Source: Bernardetia sp. (GTDB taxonomy: Bacteria; Bacteroidota; Bacteroidia; Cytophagales; Bernardetiaceae). Taken from it: 64,000 nt of DNA. The notes beneath the pieces were generated by a model. The model was not told where the DNA came from and ran no database searches. It was given only the letters and a program-made list of their open reading frames with translations. The position numbers were made by a program, and so were the translations under genes. The stretch is taken from assembly GCF_020630935.1 (NCBI RefSeq), contig NZ_JAHDIG010000003.1, forward strand, positions 75,634 to 139,633, given 5' to 3'. The first letter of the stretch is position 1, and every line of letters starts with the position of its first letter. Below, piece after piece: positions 14,347 through 15,220 of this stretch.

Positions 14347-14814
14347 TCAAATCTCATCTATCCATTCAAATAAGTATTTTTCATCATATTCAATTTCAAA
14401 TTTTTTGAGTAATAGCAAATACTCTTCCTTAAAATTTCTTTTCTTGTGGTGTTCTGGTTGATTTAAAATATATTTCACAACATTGTCTAATGCAGATTTT
14501 GAGTAGGAAAATGCACCATATCCTTTTTGCCATTCAAATTTTGTTTGTAAGAATTTTTTATCTTTTATCAATTTATTTGAACTGGTTTTCACGTCTTGTA
14601 CTAATTCAGAAATAGGTAGATTAGGTTTTAGTCCAATGAGTAAATGTGTATGGTCTGGCATACAATAAATAGCAAGTAGTTTATGTCCTTTTGCTTGTAC
14701 AACTCCTGTAATATATTTCTGTAGCTCAACTCTAAAGCTCTCTTTAATCAAACTCTTTCTACCTTTCACAGCGAATACAATTTGAATGTAGAGTTGAGAA
14801 TAAACGTTTGCCAT
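14347..14814 (-). mobile_element. RayT-type (IS200-like) HUH transposase
   Basis: This 155-residue Y1 transposase belongs to the IS200/REP-associated group. The HUH motif is H55-T-H57 within MPDHTHLLIGLKP. The nucleophile is probably Tyr115 in VVKYILNQPEHH, and FEWQKGYGAFSYSKS is characteristic of the family. These enzymes cut and rejoin single-stranded DNA at small hairpins. It has no partner TnpB. Upstream of its start lies an array of GTTGC-N3-GCAAC palindromes (14850-15140), the expected substrate hairpins. The gene appears intact. Confidence 0.9.
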
Positions 14815-14849
14815 AATTTGTAATTGATAAACTTTATTGAAAATATAAC

Positions 14850-15138
14850 GTTGCTCTGCAACTTTCTGATAAAAATATGTTTAATTTTCTACAAATATCT
14901 TGTTGCTCTGCAACTCTGCTTTGTTCTAAAATAAAAGGTTATTCAGTTGCATCGCAACGTCCTGTTTGTAGCATTTAATGGTTGATGTGATTGAGAGTTG
15001 CATCGCAACGAAATGTAATTCTGCTTTGTTCTAAAATAATAAATTTATTAAAAGATTGTGCAGCTGTATTGCAATGAAATGTAATAAGCCCTTTGTATGA
15101 TTTGATAAAAATAATGTTACATTACTCTACAACTTGGT
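14850..15138. repeat. REP-like palindrome array next to the RayT gene
   Basis: Four perfect hairpins GTTGC-N3-GCAAC lie at 14850-14862, 14902-14914, 14946-14958 and 14997-15009, with loops TCT, TCT, ATC and ATC. Decayed copies follow near 15060-15075 and 15115-15134. The word TCTGCTTTGTTCTAAAATAA follows two of them (14915-14934 and 15020-15039). The TCT and ATC loop types occur in opposite senses, as in bacterial interspersed mosaic arrays. They fill the space between the transposase and the S9 peptidase gene. Confidence 0.8.
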
Positions 15139-15220
15139 TTTTTTTAAAATAATGAATTAAACAGAATTTTCACTAATTTCCCATTTCAAACAGAATCAAG
15201 AACAAACTACACAGCATCTA

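Follow-up and report, generated by a model that had tools for sequence, protein, structure and literature searches.

Two kinds of Y1 (HuH) system are among those closest to the locus described here. The first of them, the RAYTs, carry the motif Y---NP and are associated with a GTAG word at or within 1–2 nt of the hairpin 5′ foot. In proteobacterial REPs, GTAG stands at the 5′ foot, and Quentin et al. 2018 (PMC6006769) connect GTAG with E. coli residues that include W94 and Q95. The second kind is represented by the ends of IS608 and ISDra2 (IS200/IS605), where hairpins are located near the cut sites. According to the portions of the IS608 literature used, the left-end guide lies at the hairpin base and includes position +18 from the cut, and the hairpin therefore begins shortly after +18.

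TnpAY1 subclass 1.2 is described by Quentin et al. 2018 (PMC6006769) as a low-copy group found mostly in Cyanobacteria and Bacteroidetes, which is characterized by a specific conserved C-terminal domain, has the entry ‘no’ in the REP column and generally is without typical IS200 terminal structures. The IS200-type subclass 1.1 is given with W[TS] at the W motif. Two TnpAREP subclasses are both from Bacteroidetes and possess long REPs (2.4) or ‘atypical’ structures (2.6), so REP systems in Bacteroidetes are not new as such. The GTAG repeats recorded by Di Nocera et al. 2013 come from Proteobacteria, Cyanobacteria, Chloroflexi and the PVC group, not from Bacteroidetes; for CGTC repeats, which are present in Bacteroidetes, these authors found no dedicated transposase. 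A 2025 survey reports thousands of REP-like palindromes in Flavobacterium, with transposases unmentioned in its main text; PMC12306157 and PMC5934647 also belong to the literature consulted. Among the openly licensed papers listed, no link between subclass 1.2 and hairpins was seen.

The window, a stretch of 64,000 nucleotides from Bernardetia sp., contains on its minus strand an intact open reading frame (14347..14814) encoding a Y1 HuH transposase-like protein of 155 aa. D54-H55-T56-H57 and Y115 are all in place and the protein matches Pfam Y1_Tnp with 91 bits, in line with a sequence-only reading that had recognized an intact Y1 HUH protein with H55, H57 and Y115. The ‘RayT’ family name given in that reading does not stand. 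The RAYT motif Y---NP is absent from the window protein, which has YILNQPEHH in its place and displays the signature of TnpAY1 subclass 1.2 (DHTH, WQ, YILNQPEHH). Particularly, the Y motif Y---Q--HH is formed by Y115, Q119, H122 and H123, and across 93 proteins, the window's included, its residues are present in 93 (Y), 91 (Q), 91 (H) and 93 (H). DH[IV]H and WQ are represented by D54, H55, H57, W95 and Q96; the u residue of DH-u-H is T, as in 8 of the 93 proteins, the window's among them, so that I/V itself is unmatched. A conserved C-terminal tail is visible in the alignments. The motifs DH-u-H, WQ and Y---Q--HH, the length of ~150 aa, the low copy number and the origin in Bacteroidetes all agree with subclass 1.2 as presented in the sections used of PMC6006769. 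Only two subclass 1.2 copies are found in this genome, and they are diverged (64% identical). W95-Q96 can be set beside W94/Q95 of E. coli, with a putative role towards GTAG. Subclasses 2.4 and 2.6 share the phylum and the flanking repeats, but they carry the motifs YIxNNP and YIH[QN]NP in the same partly used source and belong to a different protein class.

With the NCBIfam IS200 model the window protein scores 69 bits, above the cut-off of 55, whereas with REP_Tyr_transpos it reaches 38.8 bits, below the cut-off of 80. All 39 proteins of alignment A2 match the IS200 model (E <= 0.001), and 36 of them also match the REP-transposase model at the same threshold, so the distance from the RAYTs is, profile-wise, a matter of degree. 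The AlphaFold model of the window protein (pLDDT 93.5) has IS200/IS605-type transposases as its nearest solved structures, with Z 12.2–12.7 and an rmsd of 2.0–3.1 Å over 105–121 residues; TnpAREP 4er8 gives Z 10.6 and 3.4 Å over 126 residues (fold comparison within Foldseek's top 1000 chains). A sequence search of solved structures yielded eight matches (2fyx, 2f4f, 2xm3, 2xma, 2a6m, 2vhg, 2ec2 and 2xo6), none of which is a TnpAREP. Judged from its sequence, the window protein appears to be an IS200-side TnpAY1 of subclass 1.2 and not a classical RAYT.

The 5′ side of the gene adjoins an array of hairpins. It contains four perfect copies of GTTGC-N3-GCAAC with two loop types, as the sequence-only reading had reported. 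The copies start at 14850, 14902, 14946 and 14997, and their loops are TCT and ATC; 0.02 copies are expected in the window, and 0 of 100 shuffles reach four. The hairpins are real, and the repeated element is a two-hairpin unit of ~65 bp with GTAG inside, not the lone palindrome on which the earlier ‘palindrome array’ was based. The window contains two such units, one per orientation. The minus-strand unit runs from hairpin A (14902..14914, read from 14914 to 14902) through 9 nt, a GTAG tag (14889..14892, CTAC on the plus strand) and 26 nt to hairpin B (14850..14862, read from 14862 to 14850; GTTGC-AGA-GCAAC on the minus strand), which is nearest to the gene and ends 35 nt from the ATG. Its plus-strand counterpart consists of hairpin A (14946..14958, GTTGC-ATC-GCAAC), 9 nt, the GTAG tag (14968..14971), a linker of 25 nt and hairpin B (14997..15009), which is followed by GAAATGTAA.

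Where at least two decayed hairpins had been claimed in addition, two were found, each with three of ten stem bases changed. One is B-type, lies on the plus strand (15063..15075) and is again followed by GAAATGTAA; the other lies on the minus strand (15121..15133) and is weak when taken alone. Allowing up to two mismatches, the stem matches 18 times in the whole window against 16.4 expected, and the decayed copies are therefore weak on the stem alone. The copy at 15063–15075 gains support because it shares the GAAATGTAA tail with the perfect hairpin at 14997. Moreover, a 19-bp direct repeat, TCTGCTTTGTTCTAAAATA, can be read directly in the plus strand (first copy 14915..14933, second copy 15020–15038), and is a trace of local duplication within the array. 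The hairpins are confined to the 5′ side of the window gene and none was seen 3′ of it, so that the flanking described earlier applies to one side.

We compared the array with those of the best 80 of at least 576 relatives from a scan of named genomes. These 80 are mostly labelled Bacteroidota or a group within it, together with four from Ignavibacteria and one from Desulfonema. Of the 80 genes, 74 have at least two hairpins no more than 300 bp away whose stems agree (allowing one differing base), and 60 have at least three. Control blocks 2 kb away, long enough at 57 of the 80 loci, contain at least two such hairpins in 3 of 57 and at least three in 1 of 57, and two same-stem hairpins occur in 0.06% of shuffled flanks. 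The remaining six of these best 80 loci lack a recurrent 5-bp stem; in L068 the hairpins have unlike stems, in L072 and L082 the stems are 4 bp long, L084 and L087 have one hairpin each, and L142 has a loopless palindrome on either side. Unlike the tabulated subclass 1.2, which is listed without REPs, matching hairpins are thus frequent here; the absence of REPs is a reported trait that stands outside the sequence definition of the subclass. As a separate observation, three loci of a more distant branch (L047, L048 and L060, 35–39% identical) are flanked by long CCCACGANT-nn-ANTCGTGGG hairpins, which look like another matching repeat type with stems of 9–10 bp.

The GTAG-like word occupies a fixed position relative to these hairpins. 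Among 352 hairpins from 80 of 93 loci, which were picked blind to the tag and read both ways, [A/G]TAG occurs 150 times at +9 and 1–7 times at each other offset from 0 to 22. Anchoring in reverse gives the same spacing: a perfect stem lies 9 nt before [A/G]TAG in 146 of 770 cases and in 1–8 of 770 at 20 other gaps. In the main reverse count, 147 of 799 [A/G]TAG words have a stem, and these stems are of 25 different sequences; in control blocks the count is 7 of 416. Hairpins with [A/G]TAG at +9 are present in 63 and absent from 17 of the best 80 of at least 576 relatives, a count made without control blocks. Away from the gene, the spacing recurs in this genome at 19 of 45 hairpins in 15 regions, which are not independent because many are copies of one element, and in five other genomes at 18 of 44 hairpins in 19 hand-picked regions. 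One locus with two of four hairpins tagged (L196) was set aside from the latter count because it lies near a tnpA. The distance from the tag to the next hairpin is usually 20–30 nt. On the 5′ side of the 150 tagged hairpins only A at −1 (68%) stands out, and no conserved 5′ foot tetranucleotide, GT[AG]G included, was found there. The subclass 1.2 hairpins thus favour [A/G]TAG exactly 9 nt 3′ of the stem. A conserved tetranucleotide next to the hairpins, for which the sequence-only reading had proposed a check, does exist, but it is [A/G]TAG at 9 nt on the 3′ side and not GTAG at the 5′ foot.

This geometry both joins the locus to the described systems and separates it from them. Like RAYT/TnpAREP with their REP, BIME and REPIN sequences (PMC8266576, PMC3733652, as far as the parts used extend), the subclass 1.2 genes are diverged and low in copy number, and they have their own short palindromes in inverted pairs, which are dispersed and accompanied by a GTAG-like tag. 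The RAYT trait of a gene flanked by its own dispersed palindromes is also found, in the window on one side only. Unlike RAYT/TnpAREP, the protein has Y---Q--HH and [A/G]TAG lies 9 nt 3′ of the stem. The gene was rejected as a classical RAYT because of its Y motif, its score below the NCBIfam cut-off and the place of the tag. With the IS608 and ISDra2 ends the locus shares the HuH/Y1 fold. The cut-to-hairpin distance of IS608, taken from the literature used in part, is comparable with the 20–30 nt from [A/G]TAG to the next hairpin. A conserved guide at the hairpin foot, present in IS608/ISDra2, is missing here. The gene also differs from these elements in that it is apparently not moving as a unit and is not flanked by two ends on one strand.

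The surroundings of the gene agree with such immobility. It lies on the upstream side of a peptidase-like gene, which has a weak Dpp5 match, and is divergent from it; an 88%-identical gene of a congener (G004) takes the same position with one more ORF in between. Compared with this congener, the window gene shows a dN/dS of 0.064 at dS 0.98 and is under purifying selection. The 1.5 kb upstream of the peptidase-like gene yielded no tnpA in G005, G003 and G001; G006 has a decayed hairpin with a CTAC tag but no tnpA gene there, and the contig of G002 ends too close to the peptidase-like gene to judge. In G002, paralogues are 80, 77, 54, 48, 37, 34 and 29% identical to the window protein. Near-identical copies of the gene plus its ends were not found in this genome or in G002, where the in-genome copies are diverged paralogues. 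From the peptidase neighbourhood, the dN/dS and the diverged paralogues, the gene behaves as a kept, immobile one, in the manner of the RAYTs. An IS200/IS605 insertion sequence of the ordinary kind, whose two ends carry subterminal hairpins, would fit the score above the IS200 cut-off (69 against 55) and the IS200/IS605-type transposases as nearest solved structures. However, the copies within a genome are diverged paralogues and not near-identical IS copies, the hairpin units are inverted on both sides or lie on one side only, and other arrays in this genome are located away from its two genes. An ordinary IS200 was rejected on this copy structure, and we consider it extremely improbable.

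The hairpins could also be regulatory RNA structures, such as 5′/3′ UTR hairpins or attenuators, selected for control of the gene. IS200 mRNA carries regulatory RNA structures, and in the relatives a hairpin often stands near the start codon (median distance 45 nt at 68 loci) and near the stop codon (median distance 22 nt at 71 loci). Far from the gene there are copies that carry the same 9-nt tag, which argues against this explanation. An Rfam search of nine sources at gathering scores, in which the hairpin arrays had no match, also argues against it. We regard the regulatory explanation as very unlikely. The two Rfam matches in the nine sources are RNase P in L105 and a Flavo-1 RNA in L100 (3609–3668), the latter ~150 bp downstream of a subclass 1.2 gene and separate from the hairpins.

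The stems follow the enzymes. Stem distance rises with protein distance among the 80 of 93 loci with recurrent stems that entered a Mantel test (r 0.416; the maximum of 2000 permutations is 0.151), and the stem is shared in 93% of the 14 pairs below 15% protein distance and in 2% of the 59 pairs above 55%. In this genome, GTTGC-N3-GCAAC forms 52 palindromic sites while the reversed control pattern forms none; with four sites in the window, 48 lie outside the locus, so the palindrome proves to be enriched genome-wide. Among the 11 genomes of the family, GTTGC palindromes are numerous in this genome (G000, 52, control 0) and in G002 (75, control 3), followed by G006 (14, control 2) and G004 (12, control 6), and number 0–4 in the other seven. 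G005, whose enzyme is 76% identical and flanked by a different stem, has 0. Two further stems behave similarly: GCTCC palindromes are commoner in genomes with a GCTCC-type gene (Mann–Whitney p 0.008, 8 vs 8 genomes) and ACCCC palindromes in those with an ACCCC-type gene (p 0.02, 3 vs 13 genomes), in groups that were fixed only after the counts were seen. The GCTCC group includes L066, in which GCCTC is the commonest stem, and leaves out L133, where GCTCC is a minor stem. There are exceptions: of the genomes with a GCTCC-type gene, two contain no more than 2 and 3 GCTCC palindromes, three non-ACCCC genomes have 11–14 ACCCC palindromes (one against a control of 7), and one of the three ACCCC-type genomes has its 11 copies together on a single contig, in ~3.7 kb around the gene. 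These cross-genome counts are supportive but not clean. Taken with the genome-wide count, the relatives and the co-divergence of stem and protein, the link between transposase and palindrome is supported.

The second subclass 1.2 paralogue of this genome (L037, G000:C6:10629-11090; 64% identical) has its own units on both sides, with the stems ACACC-GTA-GGTGT, ACGCC-GTA-GGCGT and AAGCC-GTA-GGCTT, the first of which is rare in the genome. One stem of this paralogue has only 3 exact genome sites, and no strong genome-wide palindrome family is therefore seen for it. In Flavobacterium foetidum (L066, L187, L188) the dispersed GCTCC hairpins have mostly AGC/AGA loops, and those next to tnpA have GTA; the dispersed AGC/AGA hairpins are perhaps the set of a second paralogue.

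Much of the dispersal in this genome is associated with carriers. We read 16 arrays around the listed palindromes (two of the 52 sites are unlisted); a seventeenth place (L036), without any unit feature, was counted as chance. Twelve of the 16 arrays sit in two MITE-like element families. Family 1, an element of ~315 bp bounded by GGTGTACGACAAA-type ends, has inverted hairpin units in both arms and was noted at L022, L023, L025–L028, L030, L031, L035 and L148 of G000. It accounts for nine arrays, of which those at L025, L026 and L027 have no right end by the pattern used. In a search for a full IS by this pattern of ends, with at most one mismatch, GGTGTACGACAAA occurs at 24 places, against 5 for the control; seven solitary places were inspected as short stretches, two of which (L151, L169) did not include the match. 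In family 2, three arrays lie in an element with NACTCTACCCTACTA ends, in which the hairpin units are oppositely arranged (L032 3039–3285, L033 2999–3244 and L034 2986–3164). Target duplications were scored after their registers had been picked by inspection. An exact 8-bp duplication is present in two of seven two-ended elements of family 1, with 7 of 8 bases in two more and 3–4 of 8 in three, where an exact 8-mer at one register has a chance of ~1e-4; in family 2 the 9-bp duplications are 9/9, 9/9 and 8/9 in all three elements.

Target duplications are a mark of double-strand cut-and-paste transposons, and Y1 enzymes are not known to make them. MITE-like elements, some of which show 8- or 9-bp duplications, contain 12 of the 16 arrays, so much array dispersal in this genome looks driven by putative DDE transposases. 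Spread by the Y1 transposase alone is not supported; what is supported of the sequence-only interpretation is the tie between transposase and palindrome. The observation of the gene with its hairpins in that reading is confirmed and its interpretation partly supported. Inside the elements, the units vary by exactly one per arm, hairpin to hairpin (L023, L025 and L026 against the rest). This variation fits excision of a unit, and slippage between the 13-bp repeats explains it equally well. At the joint of the shorter state [A/G]TAG is absent, and the change therefore does not look like insertion at this word.

The carriers raise the question whether the hairpins are simply parts of MITEs moved by DDE transposases, with the Y1 gene as a bystander that picked up an element. 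The two terminal-inverted-repeat families that carry the units, with target duplications in part, speak for it. It leaves unexplained the hairpins beside the gene in 74 of the best 80 of at least 576 relatives, the tracking of the enzyme by the stem and the exact 9-nt tag, as well as four arrays (window, L020, L024 and L029) in whose printed flanks no MITE-like ends were seen. We therefore consider a mere bystander role of the gene improbable.

In our view, the locus probably encodes a vertically kept, apparently immobile single-stranded DNA endonuclease/ligase of the IS200-side subclass 1.2, which acts on the hairpins surrounding it and whose distant hairpin copies have spread as passengers of MITEs. 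The best overall reading is that of a REP-type system which belongs to the IS200 lineage and whose substrate has a new geometry. It builds on the intact catalytic residues, the purifying selection, the association and co-divergence of hairpin and enzyme, the 9-nt spacing of [A/G]TAG and the target duplications of part of the carriers; binding, cutting, strand transfer, mobility, dimer formation, the part played by [A/G]TAG and the action of DDE transposases are inferred. The substrate would be a 5-bp stem with a loop of 3–4 nt, often with [A/G]TAG at 9 nt and a second hairpin of the same stem 20–30 nt further on. Probably as a HuH/Y1 dimer, the enzyme would bind single-stranded DNA at the folded hairpin, and Y115 may cut at or near [A/G]TAG. 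Passing of the cut end to another site would amplify or rearrange hairpin units near the gene and elsewhere, and each enzyme lineage would have its own stem sequence. Many of the distant copies in this genome would then have been carried inside two unrelated terminal-inverted-repeat elements, moved by other transposases of presumed DDE type. The uneven copy number of the palindromes across genomes and the placement of 12 of the 16 arrays in MITE-like elements speak against this account.

A further reading of the dispersed unit (hairpin, 9 nt, [A/G]TAG, ~25 nt, hairpin) starts from the spacing at which the right-end cut site of IS200/IS605 elements stands from its hairpin. By analogy, [A/G]TAG 3′ of a hairpin resembles this right-end cut site, and the 20–30 nt to the next hairpin resemble a left end. 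Subclass 1.2 might then be a second REP system, IS200-side and independent of the RAYTs, whose unit is in effect a junction of right and left ends in which [A/G]TAG would be the cut site. The unit would have been retained and amplified while the parent lost the mobility of its gene. We propose this tentatively, as a possible but doubtful origin.

The association described here provides an enzyme group that has been listed without a substrate with a concrete, testable candidate, in which the position of the tag is given to the base. The association points to REP-type systems in both branches of the Y1 family, and it could explain part of the many short palindromes of Bacteroidota that are not yet tied to an enzyme.
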